Source: Pseudorhodoplanes sinuspersici (GTDB taxonomy: Bacteria; Pseudomonadota; Alphaproteobacteria; Rhizobiales; Xanthobacteraceae). From it: 64,000 bases of DNA. The position numbers and the translations under genes were made by a program. The stretch covers positions 3,094,501-3,158,500 of the forward strand of contig NZ_CP021112.1 of assembly GCF_002119765.1 (NCBI RefSeq). Direction: 5' to 3'. Positions 4,983-13,465 of the stretch are shown here, piece by piece. Positions within the stretch are counted from its first letter, which is position 1. Every line of letters starts with the position of its first letter. The notes beneath the pieces were generated by a model. That model had not been told where the DNA came from and searched no databases. It saw only the letters and a list, made by a program, of their open reading frames with translations.

Positions 4983-6545
4983 ATGAGCGCACTCCGCTCT
5001 CTGGTGATTGGTGATGTTTATCGGCTGAATGCCGAACGGTTCGGCGAAAAGCCCGCTTTCGTCATGCCGGATGGACGCGTGCGCTCGTTCGCGGAGCTCT
5101 ATGAACGCGTCATACGCCTCAACAATGCTTTGCTGGATCGCGGTCTGAAGCCGGGTGATCGCGTCGGCATCCTGTCGCGCAACCGCATTGAGTATGTCGA
5201 GGGCTATGGCGTTTCGGCGAGCGGATTGATTGCGTTGCCTTTAAACTGGCGATTGGCGCCGCGCGAATTGCAGATTGTGCTGGAGAACGCGGAGCCTGCC
5301 GCCCTGATCGTCGATCAGTCGTTCACTCCAGTGATCGACGCAATTCGCGAGGCGCTTCCTTTCGTGCAGCATTTCATAGGCTTCGATGCGCCGCCGGGCA
5401 GCTGGCTCGGTTACGAAGCGCTGCTTGCCGGTGCATCGCCAACGCCGATCGAAGCACTGATTTCACCTGACGATACGGCGTGCCTCCTCTACACCAGCGG
5501 CACGACCGGTATCCCGAAAGGTGCCGAACTGACCCATCGCGGTCTGCTGCTGAATTGCGAAGCTGCGATCACTGAGATGTTTGGCTTTTCCGATGTCGAC
5601 GTGACGCTGGCGCCGATGCCGTTTTTTCATGTCGGCGGCATGTGGTATCATCTGTTTCCGAGTTTCGCTGCCGGCTGCACCACGATCATCATGCCGCAAT
5701 TCGACCCACAGGGCGCACTGGAATTGATGGCGCGACATCGTGTCACCAATACGCATCTCGTACCGACGATGATCCACACGCTGCTGGAACAGCCAAATAT
5801 TGCCACGTTCGATCTCTCGGGCTTGCGCCTGATGTTCTATGCTGCGTCGTCCATGCCGACGGAAACATTGAAGCGGGCGACGGCAACTTTTGCCTGCAAT
5901 TTTGCGCAAGGGTATGGCTCGACCGAGGCCGGTATGGTGACCTGCCTGACACCGGGTGATCATCGCCTTGCCCGAGCAGGGCGCGAAAACTTGCTGCTCG
6001 CCTGCGGGAGGACATTGGACGCTGTTACATTGCGTCTTGCGCCGCTCGACAATGCCGAGGATGAGGACATCGGCGAAATTCTCGTTCGCAGCCCGATGAC
6101 CATGGCCCGCTACTGGCGTAATCCCGAATTCACCGCGCAGATCATGCAGGATGGCTGGCTACATACGGGCGATCTCGGCCGCATCGATGATGAGGATTAT
6201 CTCTCTATTCTTGACCGTAAGAGCGACATGATCGTCACCGGTGGTGAGAATGTCTATCCGCGTGAAGTTGAAGACGTCTTGCTGCAGGACGTCGACATCG
6301 CCGAGGTTGCCGTGTTCGATCTACCGGACCCGCGCTGGGTGCAAAAAGTCGTCGCTGCGGTCGTGCTCAGGAGCGAAGGCGCGGCGGCGGATATGCTCCT
6401 GTCGCGCGCGCGGCAAAAGCTGGCGGGCTACAAATGCCCAAAGCATATTTTTATTACGGAAAGTCTGCCGAAAAATGCGGCTGGGAAGGTGCTTCGCAAG
6501 GTCCTGCGGGACACATATCGTTTGAAAGAAACGGCCGACGTCTAG
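4983..6545 (+). CDS. Acyl-CoA synthetase (AMP-forming)
   Basis: The 520-residue protein carries the ANL motifs in order: P-loop LLYTSGTTGIPKGAE (about residues 165-179), QGYGSTEAG, the hinge TGDLGRIDDEDYLSILDRKSDMIVTGGENVYP, and the C-terminal catalytic lysine region NAAGKVLRK. It activates a carboxylic acid with ATP and CoA. Length and motifs fit medium/long-chain or aryl-acid ligases; specificity is not clear. It lies between the crotonase and the DUF849 gene on the same strand and probably makes the first CoA thioester of the pathway. Confidence 0.92.
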   Translation: MSALRSLVIGDVYRLNAERFGEKPAFVMPDGRVRSFAELYERVIRLNNALLDRGLKPGDRVGILSRNRIEYVEGYGVSASGLIALPLNWRLAPRELQIVLENAEPAALIVDQSFTPVIDAIREALPFVQHFIGFDAPPGSWLGYEALLAGASPTPIEALISPDDTACLLYTSGTTGIPKGAELTHRGLLLNCEAAITEMFGFSDVDVTLAPMPFFHVGGMWYHLFPSFAAGCTTIIMPQFDPQGALELMARHRVTNTHLVPTMIHTLLEQPNIATFDLSGLRLMFYAASSMPTETLKRATATFACNFAQGYGSTEAGMVTCLTPGDHRLARAGRENLLLACGRTLDAVTLRLAPLDNAEDEDIGEILVRSPMTMARYWRNPEFTAQIMQDGWLHTGDLGRIDDEDYLSILDRKSDMIVTGGENVYPREVEDVLLQDVDIAEVAVFDLPDPRWVQKVVAAVVLRSEGAAADMLLSRARQKLAGYKCPKHIFITESLPKNAAGKVLRKVLRDTYRLKETADV

Positions 6546-6572
6546 GGATCTTACAACAGGAGAGGATGAGAA

Positions 6573-7481
6573 ATGGAAACGCCGAAAGTCATCGTCACCA
6601 TCGCGCCGACCGGTGGTATGGCCAGCAAAAAGCAAAACCCAAACATCCCGACGCAGCCGCAGGAAATCGCCGACGACGTGTATCGCTGCTACAATGCCGG
6701 CGCCAGCCTGGTCGCGGTGCATGCGCGACGGCCCGACGACGAAGCGACCTGCAATCCGGAAATATATCGGACGATCAACAAGCTGATCCGCGATAAATGC
6801 GACATCATCCTCAACAACTCCACCGGCGGCGGCATCAATGGCGACATGGTGCGCAAGGCGGAGAATGGCTATTACGAGATCATCTGGGAGGAGCGCCTGA
6901 AAGGCATGGAAGCTGGCGCGGAGATGTGCACGCTCGACCCGACAACGATCAATGCGACCTTTGAAGGCCGCGAAATCCTGATGAATACCTCGCCGTCGCG
7001 CTGCAAATTCCTTGCGGCCGAGATGCAGAAGCGTGGCATCAAACCGGAATGGGAAGTGTTTTCGCCCACCCACCTGATCCAGGACGTGCAGGCGTGCCTC
7101 GATGCAGGGCTTGATACCAAGCCTTATTTCGTCAACTTCGTACTGAATGCCAATAAGGGATTCCAGGGCGCGATGCCCTATACGCCCAAGGTGCTGCAGC
7201 AAATGGTCGAGTTGATGCCGGAGGGCGCGATTTTCAACGTCAGCGCCATCGGCATCGCGCAGCTCAATGCCGCGGTGCAGTCGCTTTTGCTTGGCGGCCA
7301 CGTCCGGGTGGGTCTTGAAGACAACCTCTATTATTCGCGTGGTCGGCTCGCAAAGAATGTCGAACTGGTCGAGCGTGTGGTCCGCATTATCCGCGAATTC
7401 GGTATGGAGCCGGCGACGCCTGCGGAGGCTCGGACGATCATTGGCCTGCCGCAGCTGTCGCAGCGCAAGGGCGCAGCGTAG
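6573..7481 (+). CDS. BKACE family (DUF849) beta-keto acid cleavage protein
   Basis: The 302-residue protein matches the 3-keto-5-aminohexanoate cleavage enzyme superfamily: N-terminal IVTIAPTGG, a TGGG loop after LNNS, and the C-terminal [12 protein letters not shown], which carries the conserved Glu. These Zn enzymes condense a beta-keto acid with acetyl-CoA to give acetoacetate and a new CoA thioester. The usual HxH zinc motif reads A48-V-H50 here, so one metal ligand appears to be missing. An AACAGGAGAGG ribosome site precedes the ATG. It closes the crotonase-ligase operon. Confidence 0.88.
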
Positions 7482-7511
7482 TTCTGAACCAGCAACGGAT
7501 GAATATGAGGC

Positions 7512-7525
7512 GCGCCGCGCGGCGC
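7512..7525. terminator. GC palindrome between convergent genes
   Basis: GCGCCGC/GCGGCGC is a perfect palindrome 31 bases after the BKACE stop and just before the minus-strand soxA stop. There is no T-run. It may help end transcription from either side, or be a REP-like remnant. Confidence 0.3.
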
Positions 7526-7526
7526 T

Positions 7527-8312
7527 TCAGGGCCGCACGCCGGGTGCGTCCATTGTCATTCCGCGCGCACGCCACATCAGGAACAGCTCGAGGTCCACAT
7601 ATTCGGGCGCGCCGAGCGGATAGGGCTCGGCGCGAATGCCGGTCATGCAGTTGCGAAGCCGCCGCTGCAACGAACCGAGATTCTGCCATTCCAGACGGTA
7701 GATCGGATAACCGGTCGGATGCGCCTGCGGGATGATATTGCCAGCGAGGCTCTTGCCCCAGTTGTCGTCATGGCATTGCGCGCATGACAGATTGAGCTGA
7801 CCCTGGCGCTGGTGAAACATCGCGCTGCCTTTTTCAAGGAAAGGCTTGAGCCGCGGGTCGTCGAATTGCGCGATCGGTTCGCCACGCGATTGCATGGCGA
7901 TATAGGCTGTCAGTGCCAGTAACTCTCGGCTTTCGTAAGCCAGTGGCGGTGATTTCTGATCCTGTTCGCGCGATATGTTGATGCGCTGTTCCAGATTCAC
8001 CGGCTGGCCGTTGCCGCCGTCGAAAGCGGGATAGCGCGCCGCGACACCTTTCATGCTGGTGGCGGCATCGCCATGACAATCGGCACAGGACTTGCCGGAT
8101 GCGCCGGCCTTGGCATTCCATAACGCTTCGCCATCCAGCACGAACAGCATGGCCGGGTTGGTAGTGTCGTCGTCCTGCATTGCCTTGTTGTCGCGGCTCA
8201 TGTCTTCATAGGACGAACGGCGCTGGTCCAGTGGGATCTCGGCGGCCGACAACGCCGCTGCAAACACGAGCAGGCCCGCAACAACACTTGCCGCCAATAA
8301 TCGTCCGTTCAT
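7527..8312 (-). CDS. soxA: SoxA, diheme c-type cytochrome of SoxAX
   Basis: The 261-residue exported protein has a signal peptide (MNGRLLAASVVAGLL...) and two haem sites, CADCH and CAQCH. Near the C-terminus RRLRNCMTGIRAE matches the SoxA active-site cysteine/arginine region, where a cysteine persulfide forms. SoxAX couples a sulfur compound to the SoxY cysteine in the periplasm. The start at 8312 overlaps the soxZ stop by 4 bases and fits the signal peptide; an earlier start is possible but has no homology. It is the last gene of a seven-gene operon with a molybdenum hydroxylase. Confidence 0.92.
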   Translation of the reverse strand: MNGRLLAASVVAGLLVFAAALSAAEIPLDQRRSSYEDMSRDNKAMQDDDTTNPAMLFVLDGEALWNAKAGASGKSCADCHGDAATSMKGVAARYPAFDGGNGQPVNLEQRINISREQDQKSPPLAYESRELLALTAYIAMQSRGEPIAQFDDPRLKPFLEKGSAMFHQRQGQLNLSCAQCHDDNWGKSLAGNIIPQAHPTGYPIYRLEWQNLGSLQRRLRNCMTGIRAEPYPLGAPEYVDLELFLMWRARGMTMDAPGVRP

Positions 8313-8632
8313 TCGACCATGATCTTGGCCGAGGCTTCCTGTGTGAAGCCGTTGTCGCCGGTCCATTTAAAGTTGATGGTGCCGCTCTCGATCGCGACGG
8401 TATGAAATGTCAGAAACGGATTTGCGGAAATCGCCGGATACAGCGTCGCGTCGAAGATCGTCTCGCCGTTATAGGTGCAGACGAACGATGTGATGATGTC
8501 GCGCGGGATCGGTTGGCCCATATTGTTGTGGCGGAAGCCGTTCTCCATGATGTGCGAGATCAGTGTGCGGATCTGGATCACATCGCCGCGCTTGGCTTTC
8601 GGTGGGACATTGACGAGTGTGCGTGCAGCCAT
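8309..8632 (-). CDS. soxZ: SoxZ, sulfur-carrier partner
   Basis: The 107-residue protein has normal SoxZ length and motifs: VNVPPKAKRGDVIQIRTLISHIMENGFR at the start and the Ig-like end FKWTGDNGFTQEASAKI. It binds SoxY to form the periplasmic carrier on which sulfur intermediates are held. Its ATG overlaps the soxY stop by one base and its ribosome site GGAGG lies inside the soxY end. Like other SoxZ it lacks a signal peptide and is expected to be co-exported with Tat-dependent SoxY. Confidence 0.93.
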   Translation of the reverse strand: MAARTLVNVPPKAKRGDVIQIRTLISHIMENGFRHNNMGQPIPRDIITSFVCTYNGETIFDATLYPAISANPFLTFHTVAIESGTINFKWTGDNGFTQEASAKIMVE

Positions 8633-9105
8633 CAGACCGGGTCCTCCAGGCAGGCGCTGAGCGTCAGGATCACATCGACCTTGTCGGACCAGAATGATCC
8701 ATCCGACATTTCGCAGACGGCGACGACCCGTTGCGTGTCGGCGAGGCGGATGCGGGTTTGAAACTCGGCCTTGCCGGAGCGTGGTCCGAGCTTGACGCTG
8801 ATGACGTTCGGTTGTGGATTCTTTTCAGTGAAGATGTGGATCGCTTTCACATAATCGCTCGCCGTCATCGGGCTCTCGACCCTGACGGTCGTCGCCACCG
8901 AATTGCCATTCTCGACCAGTGGCGGCAGCTCGAGCTGGATCCTGCCAGTCTTGATCTCGGCTTCGCCTGCGACTTGACGGATTGCGGCGGCCATGGACTG
9001 CGGTGTTGCGCCGGCCGGTCGCACGATCATCAGCGCGCCGGCACCGGCCAGGAAAGTGCGGCGCGTTGCTTTGACAACGGGAGATTTGTCCAGCATCTCA
9101 CTCAT
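8632..9105 (-). CDS. soxY: SoxY, sulfur carrier with atypical C-terminus
   Basis: The 157-residue protein has a Tat signal (TRRTFLAGAG) and the SoxY fold ending in FWSDKVDVILTL. In typical SoxY the chain ends in the swinging arm GGCGG, whose Cys carries the substrate. Here the end is SACLEDPV: the Cys stays in place (codon 8650-8652) but the flanking glycines are gone and the tail is longer. The soxX stop overlaps the start by 8 bases. Function as a carrier is likely, but partner recognition may differ from the classical Sox pathway. Confidence 0.87.
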   Translation of the reverse strand: MSEMLDKSPVVKATRRTFLAGAGALMIVRPAGATPQSMAAAIRQVAGEAEIKTGRIQLELPPLVENGNSVATTVRVESPMTASDYVKAIHIFTEKNPQPNVISVKLGPRSGKAEFQTRIRLADTQRVVAVCEMSDGSFWSDKVDVILTLSACLEDPV

Positions 9106-9541
9106 CCTTCAGCGTGGTCAGAAAGGCGACGACGTCTTCGATCTCCTCAGCGGTCAACACTGGTTTGCCGCGAAGGTTCGGTGCGACGCGCGTCAGACCA
9201 TCGGTTTTGTAGAACGAGGGCATGATCGTGTCGGGGTTCAGATGCGACGCGTCGACCATGCGCAGCCGCAATTCTCCCTCCGACCAGCGTGCGCCAGCAC
9301 CGGTCAGATCGGGCGAAAGGTTCCCCTGAAAGCGTTGGTCGGGAAACGGGCCGGAATGGCAGAGCAGGCACGTCGACTCGCGCTTTACGACGATCGCGCG
9401 GCCGCGCACAGGATCGCCGGGCGTTCCGGTGAGCGATGTCGGAATCGCATCGCCGACGATATCGTATGTCAGCAGCGATCTTGCCTCACTGGGCATGCAA
9501 CCAATCGCAAGGATAGCGAATGCGAATGCCACGCGCTTCAT
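9098..9541 (-). CDS. soxX: SoxX, monohaem cytochrome c of SoxAX
   Basis: The 147-residue protein has a signal peptide (MKRVAFAFAILAIGCMPSEA), one haem site CLLCH, and a likely axial Met in IMPSFY. The C-terminus LTAEEIEDVVAFLTTL is typical of class I cytochromes c in SoxX. It pairs with SoxA, encoded three genes downstream. I chose the ATG at 9541 because it overlaps the soxF stop by 4 bases (ATGA) and begins the signal peptide. Confidence 0.92.
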   Translation of the reverse strand: MKRVAFAFAILAIGCMPSEARSLLTYDIVGDAIPTSLTGTPGDPVRGRAIVVKRESTCLLCHSGPFPDQRFQGNLSPDLTGAGARWSEGELRLRMVDASHLNPDTIMPSFYKTDGLTRVAPNLRGKPVLTAEEIEDVVAFLTTLKDE

Positions 9542-10815
9542 CCGAACACCGATTGCGTGATGTTGCGGTACCATTCGCCGGCCTGCTGAGCTTCAGCGAC
9601 GCGCATATCGCGTGATGCATTCTGCGGGCTCAGAACCGTGCCGCCTTCCGCCTCGTTATATTGGTCATCCACCGGGCGATAGGTGCCTTTCTGCGAGATC
9701 GCATAGTCGGGCGCGATCAGGCTGTAGCATGACGAGGTCAGCGTCGGTGCTGCGGGCTTGTTGCCGGCAAGCTGGGCGGCAATCGCGGCGGCACAGATCT
9801 GCGCTTGCGAATGAGCAGCAGAGGCCGAACGCGGCATCGCGCCTGCAATCGCCGCATCGCCGATGACATGAATGCCGGGACGCAATCTCGATTCAAATGT
9901 CAGCGGGTCGACCGGACACCAGCCGGTGCGGTCGGCAACTCCGGCGAATTCCGCAACATGTCCTGCAATTTGCGGCGGGATGATACTGGCGACGGCAGTC
10001 TGATATTTGTCGAAGTCAGTCGAGAGTGTCCTGGTTGCGGCATCGACGCTGATGAGCGCGCCGCCCTGCGAAAGCCCGATCCATTCGATCAAGCCGGGAT
10101 AGAGGTCCTGCCATGCGGCTTCGAACAGCTTCTGCATCGTGAAGCTGTCCTTGGCGTCGAGGATGATCACCTTCGAGCGTGGCTTTTTGGTCTTCAGGAA
10201 ATGAGCGATCAGGCTCGCACGTTCATAGGGGGCGGGAGGGCACCGCGCCGGATTGACCGGCGACGAGATGACGACCGTGCCGCCATCTTCCATCGCTTCC
10301 AGTTGCTGCCTCAGCGTGATGATCTCGTTACCGCTATTGTAGGCGGGCGGCATTGCAGCCATGGCTGCCTTGTCGTATCCCTCGATTGCATCGGCTTTGA
10401 ACGTGATGCCGGGCGAGATGACCAAACGTTCGTAATTCAGTGTCGTGCCGTTTGCGAGAGTGACGGTTTTCTTCGCTGGATCGACGGCGGTGGCAGTCGA
10501 AATGACGACATCGACGCCTTCGGACTTGATCCGATCGTAACCGAATTGCTGGGCCTTGATGTCGACAAGGCCGGCGATGACGGAGTTGCTTTCCGGTGGC
10601 GCGGTGTAGGTCGCGTTGGTCTCGACCAGTGTGACCTTCAATTTCGGATCGGCCTGGCGCAGCGCCCGTGCGCAGCTTGCACCGCCGAAGCCGCCGCCGA
10701 TGACAACGACAGACGGGCCTGTCGCTTGCCCGAGCACGGGCATTGGAAATGCAGCAGCCGCGGTGCTAGCCGCGGCTGCTTTGATCAATTGCCTGCGATC
10801 GACGCGCGTGTTCAC
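9538..10815 (-). CDS. soxF: SoxF / flavocytochrome c sulfide dehydrogenase flavoprotein
   Basis: The 425-residue protein begins with a Tat signal (DRRQLIKAAAAS), then the FAD motif VVVIGGGFGGASCARAL, and ends with the FCSD C-terminal domain. The redox-active cysteines are visible in NPARCPPAPYER and SSCYSLI. The segment where FccB attaches FAD to a Cys reads YTAPPESN, so FAD is probably non-covalent. No separate SoxE cytochrome is next to it; SoxX is the nearest cytochrome. It should oxidise sulfide or a thiol/persulfide, or reactivate the carrier. It overlaps the Mo-subunit gene by 4 bases. Confidence 0.9.
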   Translation of the reverse strand: MNTRVDRRQLIKAAAASTAAAAFPMPVLGQATGPSVVVIGGGFGGASCARALRQADPKLKVTLVETNATYTAPPESNSVIAGLVDIKAQQFGYDRIKSEGVDVVISTATAVDPAKKTVTLANGTTLNYERLVISPGITFKADAIEGYDKAAMAAMPPAYNSGNEIITLRQQLEAMEDGGTVVISSPVNPARCPPAPYERASLIAHFLKTKKPRSKVIILDAKDSFTMQKLFEAAWQDLYPGLIEWIGLSQGGALISVDAATRTLSTDFDKYQTAVASIIPPQIAGHVAEFAGVADRTGWCPVDPLTFESRLRPGIHVIGDAAIAGAMPRSASAAHSQAQICAAAIAAQLAGNKPAAPTLTSSCYSLIAPDYAISQKGTYRPVDDQYNEAEGGTVLSPQNASRDMRVAEAQQAGEWYRNITQSVFG

Positions 10816-13007
10816 GCGATCTCGAGGTTATGGTTCTTCAGCGGGAAGGTGCGATAGCGTCGCCCGGTCGCCGCGAAGATGGCGTTGAGTACGGCCGGTG
10901 CGGCCACGAAGATCGTGGGCTCGCCGACGCCACCCCAGAAGTCATTTGACGGCATGATGACCGATTCCACCTTCGGCATTTCAGCCATGCGGAGCGAGTC
11001 ATAAGTGTCGAAATTGGTTTCGACCACAGCGCCGTCCTTGATCGTGATGCCGCCATGGAAGAGTGCCGACAAGCCATACACGAATGAGCCGGCGATCTGG
11101 CGCTCGATCTGCGCCGGATTCACCGCGTGTCCGGGATTCGTCGCCGCCACGATGCGATGCATCTTCACCTTGTTGTCCTGCACCGATACTTCGGCCGCGG
11201 CAGCAACATAGCTGCCATAGCCCATGTGCTGGCAAAGGCCGCGGAAGATGCCTTGCGGAGCCGGCTTGTCCCAGCCGACGCGTTCGGCCACGGCATTGAG
11301 CACCGCCAGATGCTTCGGGTGTTTTGCCATCATCTTGCGCCGGAATGCGAGCGGGTCCTGCCCCGCCGCCTGTGCCAGCTCGTCGATGAAGCATTCCAGA
11401 TAGATGGCGTTCTGGTTGTTGTTCACGCCGCGCCAGAACCATGGCGGCACGTGCGGATTGCGCAGGGAGTGATCAATCAAGAGGTTCGGAATGTCGTATC
11501 CTAACGCGCCTTCGGCGCCGCCAGGATTGAGGCCTTGGAAGATGATGGGATCAGCACCACCTTTCATCGCTTCCGGACGCGCATAAGACAGGATCGATTG
11601 TCCCGATATACGCATATGCAGGCCGACGAGGTTGTTGTCCTTGTCGAGTGCGCCGGTCAGCTTGCATTGCGTGACCGGGTGATAGACACCGTTGGTCATG
11701 TCCTCTTCGCGAGACTTTAGCAGCTTGACCGGAATGCCGGGCATTTGCTTGGCGATCAGCACGGCCTCGGTCACATATTCGCTGCGCGTGCGCCGGCCGA
11801 AGCCGGTGCCGAGCATCAGCCGGTGGATCTCGCATTGATCGGCGCGCAAGCCCGACGCCGCGATGGTTGCGGCATAAGCGGCTTCGCCGTTCTGCGTTGA
11901 GGTCCAGACCTCGCATTTCTCGGGCGTGTAGAGCACCGTGGCGTTCATCGGCTCGAGACAGACGTGGTTCTGGAACGGATAGGCGTAAACCGCTTCAACT
12001 TTCTTTGCCGCGCCGGAGAGGGCGGCAGTGGCGTCACCCTGCTTGTTGCCGACATAGGCGTTTTCAGCCGTCAGCCCTTCCTCGAGCCACTTGGCGATCG
12101 ATTCAGACGAAACCTTTTCATTCTCGCCCTTGTCCCATTCGATCGGCAATGCGTCGAGCGCTGTCTTGGCCTGCCACCAGGTATCGGCAACGACCGCGAC
12201 CGACTTGTCGTCGACCTGCAGCACCTTCTTGACGCCTTTCATGCCGGAGACTTTGGAGGCGTCGAAGCTCTTCACCTTGCCGCCAAACACAGGGCAATCC
12301 TTGATCGCGGCACTGAGCATGCCCGGCATCTTGAAGTCGATCGAATACATCATTTTGCCGACGACCTTGTCGGCGGTATCGAGGCGCTTCAGCGGCTTGC
12401 CGGCAATCTTCCAGTCCTTCGGATCCTTGAGCGCTGGCTTTTCCGGCACTGGGAGCTTGGCCGCAGCGGCCGCAACCTTGCCGTAGGTTGTCGTGCGGTT
12501 CGAGGCCTTGTGGGTGATGACACCTGCCGATGCGGTGCATTCGGAGGCCGGCACCTTCCACTCATTGGCCGCGGCCTGGATTAGCATCAGGCGTGCAGCG
12601 GCACCGCCTTCACGCACATATTGATGCGACTCGCGAATAGCGCGGCTGCCGCTGGAATTGTAATTGCCCCAGGCGCGTTTGCGTTTCACGTTGTCCATGG
12701 GCGTCGGATATTCGGTTGTGACCTTTGCCCAGTCGCAATCCAGTTCTTCCGCGATCAACTGGGCAAGACCGGTCTGCGAGCCCTGGCCCATTTCGGCGCG
12801 GACAACGCGGATGGCAACGGTGTCATCCGGCTTGATGGCGACCCAGATGCCGAGTTCGTTCGGGGTGAGATTCTCGCCGAACTGGTCGGCCGCACCGGCT
12901 TGCGCCAGCGCATCGCCGCCAAAGGGAATGCCGAGCGCGAGTCCGCCGCCGACGGCGGCTGAACCGATGACGAAAGCGCGGCGATTGATTTTCGGTTGGA
13001 AATTCAT
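10812..13007 (-). CDS. Periplasmic molybdenum hydroxylase large subunit (IorB-like)
   Basis: The 731-residue protein belongs to the xanthine oxidase family, isoquinoline 1-oxidoreductase beta-subunit/aldehyde dehydrogenase branch. It has a Tat signal (NRRAFVIGSAAVGGG), cofactor-contacting segments such as EMGQGSQTGLAQLIAEEL and GTGFGRRTRSEYV, and the essential active-site Glu in GVGEPTIF (Glu696). It would hydroxylate its substrate with water at a Mo site, sending electrons to the [2Fe-2S] subunit and a cytochrome c. GGGAGG before ATG 13007 decides the start. It leads directly into soxF with a 4-base overlap. Confidence 0.9.
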   Translation of the reverse strand: MNFQPKINRRAFVIGSAAVGGGLALGIPFGGDALAQAGAADQFGENLTPNELGIWVAIKPDDTVAIRVVRAEMGQGSQTGLAQLIAEELDCDWAKVTTEYPTPMDNVKRKRAWGNYNSSGSRAIRESHQYVREGGAAARLMLIQAAANEWKVPASECTASAGVITHKASNRTTTYGKVAAAAAKLPVPEKPALKDPKDWKIAGKPLKRLDTADKVVGKMMYSIDFKMPGMLSAAIKDCPVFGGKVKSFDASKVSGMKGVKKVLQVDDKSVAVVADTWWQAKTALDALPIEWDKGENEKVSSESIAKWLEEGLTAENAYVGNKQGDATAALSGAAKKVEAVYAYPFQNHVCLEPMNATVLYTPEKCEVWTSTQNGEAAYAATIAASGLRADQCEIHRLMLGTGFGRRTRSEYVTEAVLIAKQMPGIPVKLLKSREEDMTNGVYHPVTQCKLTGALDKDNNLVGLHMRISGQSILSYARPEAMKGGADPIIFQGLNPGGAEGALGYDIPNLLIDHSLRNPHVPPWFWRGVNNNQNAIYLECFIDELAQAAGQDPLAFRRKMMAKHPKHLAVLNAVAERVGWDKPAPQGIFRGLCQHMGYGSYVAAAAEVSVQDNKVKMHRIVAATNPGHAVNPAQIERQIAGSFVYGLSALFHGGITIKDGAVVETNFDTYDSLRMAEMPKVESVIMPSNDFWGGVGEPTIFVAAPAVLNAIFAATGRRYRTFPLKNHNLEIA

Positions 13008-13018
13008 GCGGGCCTCCC

Positions 13019-13465
13019 TCAAGCTTTCGCCGCGGCATGAATGGCCGCGCGGATTTGCTGGAAGGTGCCGCACCGGCAGATATTGGTCATCTGCTGGTCG
13101 ATGTCGGCGTCGGTTGGCTTCGGGTTATTGTTGAGCAACTCAACGGCCGCCATGATCTGGCCGGACTGGCAATAGCCGCATTGCGGCACGTCATTGTCGA
13201 TCCATGCCTGCTGTACTTTGTGCAGCGCACCGTTTTGCGCGAGGCCTTCGATCGTGACGACTTTGGTGCCGACAGCGCCGCTGACGGTGAATGAGCAGGA
13301 GCGAGTGGCCACGCCATCGACATGCACCGTGCAGGCACCGCATTGTGCAATGCCGCATCCATATTTTGTGCCGGTCAGGCCAACATTTTCCCGAAGGACC
13401 CACAATAGGGGCGTGTCGGGATCCACGTCGACGTCGTGATCTTTGCCATTGATGTTGAGAATCAT
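13019..13465 (-). CDS. [2Fe-2S] small subunit of the molybdenum hydroxylase (IorA-like)
   Basis: The 148-residue protein has both iron-sulfur sites of the family: Cys37, 42, 45 and 57 (plant-ferredoxin type) and Cys96, 99, 130 and 132. It carries electrons from the Mo centre of the next gene product. No signal peptide is visible, so export would need piggy-backing on the Tat-targeted large subunit. GGAGAGG precedes ATG 13465. It is the first gene of the operon; the large subunit starts 11 bases after its stop. Confidence 0.92.

Follow-up and report, generated by a model that had tools for sequence, protein, structure and literature searches.

A xanthine oxidase (XO)-type molybdenum enzyme and a Sox-related sulfur carrier are encoded together in a conserved operon, examined here in Pseudorhodoplanes sinuspersici. 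The operon recurs across related loci, its Mo subunits fall into one main clade, the arm motif of its SoxY switches with the catalytic partner encoded beside it, and SoxB is frequently absent from the genomes that carry it. There is, in our estimate, an even chance that these genes make up a self-contained periplasmic carrier pathway that is related to Sox yet separate from it.

Operon layout in the Pseudorhodoplanes sinuspersici window

The window, a 64,000-nucleotide stretch of contig NZ_CP021112.1, contains seven genes on its minus strand in the order FeS-Mo-SoxF-SoxX-SoxY-SoxZ-SoxA, with open reading frames (ORFs) and junctions read from the sequence:

13019..13465, minus strand, 2Fe-2S small subunit (XO family, IorA-like), 148 aa, Fer2 and Fer2_2 domains
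10812..13007, minus strand, Mo-binding large subunit (XO family, IorB-type), 731 aa from the ATG at 13007, MoCoBD_1/2 domains and a twin-arginine leader
9538..10815, minus strand, SoxF, flavocytochrome c sulfide dehydrogenase (FCSD) flavoprotein, GTG start, FCSD domains
9098..9541, minus strand, SoxX cytochrome c, ATG start, TIGR04485 (76.9 bits, cut-off 61)
8632..9105, minus strand, SoxY variant, ATG start, TIGR04487 (202.7 bits, cut-off 172)
8309..8632, minus strand, SoxZ, TIGR04490 (91 bits, cut-off 76)
7527..8312, minus strand, SoxA, dihaem type, ATG start, TIGR04484 (233.5 bits, cut-off 110)

A gap of 11 bases separates the FeS and Mo genes, and the remaining junctions are overlaps of 4 bases (Mo/SoxF, SoxF/SoxX, and SoxZ/SoxA), 8 bases (SoxX/SoxY), or 1 base (SoxY/SoxZ). 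These coordinates confirm the tight coupling of all seven genes that had been proposed in a sequence-only reading of the window. Inspection by eye again found, as in that reading, twin-arginine motifs on the Mo subunit, SoxF, and SoxY, and leaders of a Sec-like type on SoxX and SoxA; the Pfam TAT_signal model scored SoxF at 20.7 bits, under its cut-off of 22.7. A scan for consensus promoters found fewer sites in the sequence than in shuffled versions of it.

Neither ORFs nor family profiles revealed soxB, soxC, or soxD within the operon. The earlier claim that these genes are missing therefore applies to the operon only; in the genome, a search located all three in a complete classical locus, soxXA-YZBCD, at 4.81 Mb, 1.7 Mb from the operon. 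The operon is thus an addition in this organism rather than a stand-in, and the idea that it repairs a missing Sox pathway is ruled out.

The carrier differs from canonical SoxY. Although the gene had been called soxY, the protein reaches only 101.6 bits against the true SoxY model TIGR04488 (cut-off 125) and instead scores above the cut-off of NCBIfam TIGR04487 (SoxY_para_1, 'SoxY-related AACIE arm protein'), a model whose output gives a protein name and ties no Mo enzyme or function to it. The fused SoxYZ model TIGR04557 gives 56.6 and 37.5 bits against a cut-off of 140, and SoxY and SoxZ are separate genes. Where the classical arm ends in ...TIGGCGG, the window SoxY reads ...TLSACLEDPV, with disorder predicted at the arm end. 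The arm cysteine, Cys152, is kept in 80 of 80 related loci and aligns with the arm cysteine of 2ox5_Y.

The other Sox-like proteins also retain their key residues. In SoxA the active-site cysteine, residue 222 counted from the ATG, aligns with a cysteine of 1h31_A and is present in all 77 loci showing the position (78 aligned), and both haem-binding cysteines of SoxX occur in 79/79 loci. The top solved match to SoxF is an FCSD flavoprotein (5n1t_A, E 2.8e-122); Cys192 is found in 74/74 loci and Cys363 in the 73/73 loci with that position aligned, and we take these two residues to be the redox pair of FCSD flavoproteins. No FCSD cytochrome subunit lies beside SoxF, which is directly flanked by the Mo and SoxX genes. 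Locus L142 has a small CxxCH-bearing ORF beside SoxF, without a Pfam match.

Recurrence of the operon and the partner of the SoxY arm

A survey for conserved gene order, which the sequence-only reading had proposed, showed that 62 of 80 related loci have the full order FeS-Mo-F-X-Y-Z-A, indicating that the arrangement is not due to chance. In 73 of the 80 the Mo gene sits upstream and reads in the same direction; six of the remaining seven end at a contig edge, and in L079 the Mo gene is convergent. None of the 80 has soxB, soxC, or soxD nearby. SoxF is absent from some members and SoxX or SoxA from others; some members thus do without the complete scheme. Three loci (L156, L208, and L209) have Mo/FeS and SoxYZ but no detected SoxA or SoxX next to them, and the pairing of Mo/FeS with SoxYZ therefore looks like the core of the system. 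It had also been stated beforehand that a complete classical locus elsewhere that complements all sulfur phenotypes, together with a gene order limited to this strain, would speak against the proposal; a classical locus exists, yet the order is not limited to one strain.

When ORFs flanking the 80 loci were clustered, no non-operon neighbor appeared in more than 31. The most common, an upstream MFS transporter (Pfam; 31/80), comes nearly always from Bradyrhizobium and was dropped as a clue to the substrate. An SBP56 gene (Pfam), which we take to belong to the methanethiol oxidase family, lies 2.3-5.6 kb downstream in 10/80 loci; it too was dropped, being confined to Bradyrhizobium loci and not found in the P. 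sinuspersici genome.

The arm motif was related to the adjacent enzyme in 92 SoxY loci drawn from an evenly drawn class sample (matches of at least 75 bits). Among xAC arms, 33/42 have an adjacent Mo gene and none has soxB, whereas 37 of the 49 GGC arms adjoin soxB and none a Mo gene; a single SGC arm occurs with a Mo gene. Counted by family, xAC arms accompany a Mo gene in 20/23 and SoxB in none. The SoxY arm motif thus switches with the catalytic partner. The arm of L202 reads GGCGG. Nine xAC loci have no adjacent Mo gene: four come from genomes that encode a Mo subunit of 57-69% identity at another site, and five, all with a GACS arm (G191, G313, G286, G075, and G364), lack a close Mo homologue anywhere in the genome.

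Among 37 class-sample genomes with both carrier and Mo enzyme, SoxB scored above cut-off in nine and in none of the other 28. SoxB is also present in ten same-family relatives (including G361) and in four small genomes. The arm-partner switch fits a Mo enzyme that acts on the SoxYZ arm instead of SoxB or SoxCD. The original suggestion of such a replacement is accordingly favored by the conserved unit and the switch, but not in P. sinuspersici itself, where the classical locus is present.

The molybdenum enzyme and its possible reaction

The Mo enzyme belongs to the two-subunit periplasmic type of the XO family (IorAB/AldH-like), as judged from MoCoBD domains, a conserved RR, and a G-x-G-E-P motif in the Mo subunit. 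All eight cysteines for two 2Fe-2S clusters are kept in the FeS subunit of 68/68 aligned loci. After L206, L208, L209, and an additional Mo gene from the distal end of L028 had been set apart on the strength of a first tree, 51 Mo subunits from carrier loci and the four non-adjacent ones of xAC genomes formed one clade of 55 (support 0.996), with no intruder among the 19 other Mo sequences in the tree. Other second Mo copies (e.g., L033, L044, L047, and L150) were retained, and six ORFs clustering as out-of-frame artefacts were removed between the first and final trees. The carrier-linked Mo subunits of L206, L208, and L209 lie outside the clade, among unlinked paralogues, and are probably separate recruitments. 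Within the clade GVGEP occurs in 47/55 members and xxGEP in 54/55, the glutamate of this motif presumably being catalytic.

The closest solved structure to the Mo subunit, 8gy3_C (TM 0.82, 27% identity), is the large subunit, of the same fold, of the membrane-bound aldehyde dehydrogenase of Gluconobacter oxydans. To our knowledge that enzyme has no SoxYZ, and unlike in the Gluconobacter enzyme, SoxX and SoxA are the sole cytochromes of the operon. Because the nearest solved relative is an aldehyde dehydrogenase, carbon and sulfur substrates come equally into question.

We hypothesize that SoxAX, in most members, would load SoxYZ with a sulfur compound at the cysteine of its C-terminal AC-x-E arm, and that the XO-type Mo enzyme would act on the loaded arm, taking the step of SoxB and SoxCD in classical Sox. 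Electrons would pass from the Mo enzyme through the 2Fe-2S clusters to c-type cytochromes, and SoxF, where present, would deal with released or bound sulfane sulfur. The likeliest substrate would be a small organic thiol coupled as a mixed disulfide; hydroxylation of the carbon next to sulfur would let an aldehyde or acid leave, and a persulfide would remain on SoxYZ. That the Mo enzyme acts on the SoxYZ arm seems to us somewhat probable, while an organic thiol as substrate is a tentative choice. The complete scheme, in which an XO-type Mo hydroxylase cuts the C-S bond of a SoxYZ-held substrate through carbon oxidation in mostly SoxB-free bacteria, is doubtful. We know of no Mo hydroxylase that acts on a protein-bound substrate, nor of an XO-family reaction that hydroxylates an sp3 carbon beside sulfur. 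Several observations count against the carrier pathway. First, the closest solved Mo relatives oxidize aldehydes. Second, three Mo subunits fall outside the clade, the five GACS loci lack a close Mo homologue, and SoxB is co-present in some genomes. Finally, a similar cluster in Starkeya novella showed hardly any expression with thiosulfate, methanol, or glucose, according to the available part of its report (PMC3797975).

The aldehyde dehydrogenase relationship allows another reading, which we regard as rather unlikely: the Mo enzyme would be a periplasmic aldehyde dehydrogenase, SoxYZ would trap the aldehyde through its arm cysteine as a thiohemiacetal, and SoxAX would accept the electrons. 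The loci with no SoxA or SoxX beside Mo and SoxYZ agree with this reading, but the conserved SoxA active-site cysteine and the cysteines kept in SoxF point to sulfur chemistry, and periplasmic Mo aldehyde dehydrogenases elsewhere, as far as we know, do not need SoxYZ. Carbon roles have been suggested for divergent SoxYZ in the accessible text of a recent study (mSystems 2024), and the reading follows the published idea of such roles for fused SoxYZ encoded next to alcohol and methanol dehydrogenases.

Alternatively, the operon might encode an inorganic-sulfur variant of Sox, in which the Mo enzyme oxidizes SoxYZ-bound sulfane sulfur from sulfide or thiosulfate as SoxCD does, or frees the product as SoxB does. 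The operon retains SoxAX, SoxYZ, and SoxF together with their cysteines, and the arm-partner switch fits a replacement, but we know of no oxidative XO-family reaction that inserts oxygen at sulfur. The S. novella cluster is also very low with thiosulfate, and soxY2 of Bradyrhizobium diazoefficiens is described, in the portion of the report at hand, as dispensable for thiosulfate oxidation, although that soxY2 locus may not be this one. We therefore consider an inorganic-sulfur variant quite improbable.

It is very unlikely that SoxYZ instead serves the Mo enzyme, a persulfide on its arm renewing, in the periplasm, the sulfido ligand at the Mo site. XO-family enzymes require that ligand, as published abstracts state, and the loci without detected SoxA or SoxX would suit such a role. 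However, the other Mo paralogues of the P. sinuspersici genome lie far from both SoxY genes and seem to manage without a carrier, and XO-family cofactors mature in the cytoplasm. A redundant or silent sox duplicate with a Mo enzyme adjacent by chance, in line with what the S. novella study concluded for the conditions examined there (available text), is likewise highly unlikely given the conserved order, the predominance of class-sample carriers without SoxB, and the retention of the operon in four genomes of 1.7-2.1 Mb.

Comparison with known systems

Sox genes are commonly taken as markers of thiosulfate oxidation. The operon is a Sox-like set that is found widely, often in SoxB-free genomes, and its carrier arm goes with another catalytic partner; counts of soxA, soxX, soxY, and soxZ in metagenomes would therefore overstate that process. 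Which 'second' sox clusters belong together can be told from arm motif and Mo partner, and SoxB-free hosts offer a clean genetic background in which their function becomes testable. Should the Mo enzyme indeed act on the carrier arm, this would be a new reaction type for both Mo hydroxylases and SoxYZ. The presence of the arrangement in many bacteria suggests a route of sulfur or carbon oxidation apart from the textbook one.

Compared with classical Sox (soxXA-YZ-B-CD), the operon shares homologues of SoxAX, SoxZ, and SoxF, a carrier with a C-terminal cysteine arm, and the SoxA active-site cysteine together with SoxAX. It differs in its AC-x-E arm in place of GGCGG, in the lack of SoxB and SoxCD, and in a Mo enzyme of the XO type rather than the sulfite oxidase type. 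Fused SoxYZ carriers encoded beside PQQ alcohol/methanol dehydrogenases (TIGR04557; SoxYZ-S2/S4) likewise pair a divergent SoxYZ with a periplasmic non-Sox dehydrogenase but, unlike the operon, are fused and have a quinoprotein partner; the accessible text of that study indicates that SoxY sequences without a GGC motif were dropped, so the AC-arm group fell outside it (PMC11237559).

The second cluster of S. novella, Snov_1975-Snov_1982, appears from its description alone to be the same kind of operon: the available part of the report lists soxX2Y2Z2A2F2 and an XO-family Mo enzyme without soxB or soxCD, and in 2013 judged the cluster to be without function under the conditions tested (PMC3797975). 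These data and those on B. diazoefficiens soxY2, perhaps another locus, make it less likely that the operon takes part in thiosulfate oxidation, as far as the accessible reports go. The arrangement in S. novella and the NCBIfam model for this SoxY were thus already known. In its available part, that report (PMC3797975) concerns one strain and includes neither a survey nor an arm motif; what is new here is the breadth of the arrangement, the switch of arm motif with partner, and the frequent occurrence without SoxB.

Operon anatomy and the altered SoxY arm

The operon consists of seven minus-strand genes whose junctions, read 5' to 3', are an 11-base gap followed by overlaps of 4, 4, 8, 1 and 4 bases, so that all the gene junctions given in the sequence-only reading are borne out. 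The Mo subunit starts at an ATG at 13007, with a longer GTG frame at 13073 as the alternative.

Features of the window (identities of operon products from Pfam/NCBIfam)
13465-7527, minus strand: 2Fe-2S subunit, Mo-binding subunit, SoxF, SoxX, SoxY, SoxZ and SoxA
within the operon, minus strand: SoxF, the flavocytochrome c sulfide dehydrogenase flavoprotein
4983-7481, plus strand: acyl-CoA ligase and beta-keto acid cleavage enzyme (BKACE), pointing at the soxA end

The window SoxY falls under the cut-off of NCBIfam TIGR04488 (GGCGG arm) and over that of TIGR04487, which NCBI names 'SoxY-related AACIE arm protein'; its arm reads TLSACLEDPV. By these family models it lies outside the true SoxY family, which changes the picture of the operon. 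A scan with this protein as query, using one genome per species, returned at least 454 related stretches, of which the best 80 were kept. Within these 80 loci the arm cysteine, which aligns with that of a solved SoxY, is invariant (80/80), and a glutamate follows two residues further in at least 97%. The predicted SoxY model consists chiefly of beta strands, and residues 153-157 have the very low confidence that a loose arm would be expected to show.

The accompanying proteins are also conserved at key positions. In SoxA, which is of the dihaem type, the active-site cysteine is invariant across the 77 loci showing the position (78 aligned), and SoxF retains Cys192 (74/74) and Cys363 (73/73 showing the position). 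SoxA residue 114 from the ATG (window 7971-7973) is serine in the window, as in 2 of 78 relatives, the other 76 having cysteine. This residue aligns with a cysteine of the solved SoxA 1h31 that is an axial haem ligand. The first SoxA haem may be differently ligated in the P. sinuspersici strain.

The arm motif and its catalytic partner

The relationship between arm and partner was surveyed across every SoxY match of at least 75 bits in an evenly drawn sample of Alphaproteobacteria (92 loci, including both from the window's genome), with Mo enzyme, SoxB and SoxC sought within about 6-8 kb of SoxY or up to the contig end. The SoxY arm motif follows the partner enzyme. After correction of one locus (L202), the 42 xAC arms have Mo in 33 cases and neither SoxB nor SoxC in any, the 49 GGC arms have SoxB in 37 cases and Mo in none, and the single SGC arm has Mo. 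Fisher's test, run with L202 still uncorrected and ignoring relatedness, gave values of 1e-16 (Mo) and 4e-15 (SoxB). Counted by family, xAC arms span 23 families, of which 20 have Mo and none has SoxB; GGC arms span 30, of which none has Mo and 24 have SoxB.

Nine xAC loci lack an adjoining Mo enzyme, and four of these lie in genomes encoding a 57-69% identical Mo subunit elsewhere. The other five (L197, L199, L201, L204 and L205) are a real exception to the rule: all carry the arm GACS, and the best Mo homologue in their genomes reaches 32% identity, with none in genome G191. These loci encode SoxYZ with GACS at the extreme C-terminus, together with SoxX and SoxA in four of five; with no SoxB nearby and no close Mo homologue genome-wide, they may use a different partner. 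Separately, loci L146-L149 encode GGC-arm SoxYZ pairs for which soxA, soxB and a Mo gene were not found nearby, and their genomes contain no SoxB over the cut-off.

The absence of soxB and soxCD, as claimed in the sequence-only reading, holds for the operon and fails for the genome. The window is part of one 5.97 Mb contig, and a whole-genome search located a classical sox locus at 4.81 Mb. There soxX and soxA share a strand, and divergent from them lie soxY (GGCGG arm), soxZ, soxB and soxC, along with genes for a cytochrome, placed where soxD would be, and for a flavoprotein resembling SoxF. Pseudorhodoplanes sinuspersici therefore has both systems. Such coexistence of the Mo-carrier operon with a SoxB system is often seen: SoxB was present in nine of nine same-family relatives tested, in genome G361, and in four of four small genomes (1.7-2.1 Mb). 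In the class sample, SoxB exceeded the cut-off in 9 of 37 genomes having an AC arm (or the single SGC arm) and a Mo enzyme, adjacent or in trans; 23 of the 28 genomes without it are at least 95% complete.

Distribution of the operon and its Mo enzyme

The gene-order survey suggested earlier found the complete seven-gene order in 62 of the best 80 of at least 454 stretches, and in 73 the Mo genes lie upstream and point the same way. Of the remaining seven, six end at a contig end and one (L079) has convergent Mo genes downstream. Most of the 80 are from Bradyrhizobium and other Hyphomicrobiales, with Rokubacteria, Reyranella, Rhodospirillales and one betaproteobacterium also represented. Queries with SoxB, SoxC and SoxD from the window's genome matched none of these loci (3.8-20.5 kb each), and no SoxF was detected in some of them, including L015, L067 and L089. 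The TIGR04487 cut-off was exceeded in 21 of 385 class-sample genomes and 15 of 398 in a phylum sample. Among the latter are four genomes from outside the class, 1.7-2.1 Mb in size, in which the genes run FeS-Mo-X-Y-Z-A. The arrangement is common to distant lineages.

Ten of the best 80 loci (L027, L037, L040, L041, L048, L053, L060, L066, L070 and L088), all Bradyrhizobium, carry SBP56, of the methanethiol oxidase family, downstream of the operon (Pfam match run on L048). In distant versions, the SoxYZ/SoxF genes have an FGE-sulfatase-like neighbour whose product appears to carry a signal peptide.

FGE-sulfatase-like genes in distant operon versions
L150, 4448-5296 (Pfam)
L152, 4927-5847 (Pfam)
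L208, 5412-6275 (Pfam)
L209, 55-1002 (read by eye)

In a tree of 74 Mo subunits, picked after a first tree and with some loci contributing two, 51 from carrier loci and four trans copies form one clade (support 0.996) that includes none of the 19 others; its main part holds 48 sequences (support 1.0). The Mo subunits of L206, L208 and L209 are not in this clade and seem to have been recruited separately. The closest other paralogue in the window's genome is 37% identical to the operon Mo subunit. For the operon subunit, the best structural match of the AlphaFold model (mean pLDDT 79.9) is the large subunit of Gluconobacter aldehyde dehydrogenase (TM 0.82, 27% identity), also the best match by sequence. 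The eight cluster cysteines of the small subunit are invariant (68/68 loci). Locus L150 has tandem Mo subunits (6978-9389 and 10005-12416), 86% identical over the aligned part, and a SoxY whose arm, GACVED, precedes a C-terminal extension of about 30 residues.

The observation that started this work is correct, and the arrangement is not wholly new. According to one study, Starkeya novella has a second cluster, soxX2Y2Z2A2F2 with a xanthine-oxidase-family Mo enzyme and without soxB or soxCD, whose SoxAX and SoxYZ were undetected and whose transcripts were very low with thiosulfate, methanol or glucose; the study concluded that the cluster was of no functional significance there, leaving open whether that holds under other growth conditions (PMC3797975). 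Thiosulfate oxidation in Bradyrhizobium diazoefficiens, which has two soxY genes, is reported to require only soxY1 (PMC5748708); soxY2 may or may not belong to this operon type. A 2024 study of SoxY diversity retained GGC-motif sequences only and proposed non-thiosulfate roles for divergent SoxYZ (PMC11237559). Among the matches listed in searches of open full text, we recognised no paper on the Mo-carrier pairing as a family or on the arm motif. As far as searched, the breadth, the arm-partner switch and the frequent occurrence without SoxB are new.

A proposed chemistry and comparison with classical Sox

The loaded SoxYZ arm is the inferred site of action of the Mo enzyme. We favor a mechanism in which it would oxidize the carbon adjoining an arm-bound sulfur, because xanthine-oxidase-type enzymes hydroxylate carbon and SoxAX makes sulfur-sulfur bonds. 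Such oxidation would free an aldehyde or acid, and a persulfide would stay on the arm for SoxF or others. A serious alternative is an aldehyde-oxidizing system in which SoxYZ serves as a thiol carrier. L156, L208 and L209 have Mo/FeS together with SoxYZ, and no SoxA or SoxX was detected next to them; L208 and L209, whose Mo subunits lie outside the main clade, also carry a distant SoxF.

In classical Sox, SoxAX attaches a sulfur compound to the arm of SoxY, SoxB removes sulfate by hydrolysis, and SoxCD oxidizes the remaining sulfane. Like that system, the window operon retains SoxAX and the carrier; unlike it, the operon lacks SoxB and SoxCD and has an altered arm sequence, and the usual partner in these operons is a xanthine-oxidase-type Mo enzyme.
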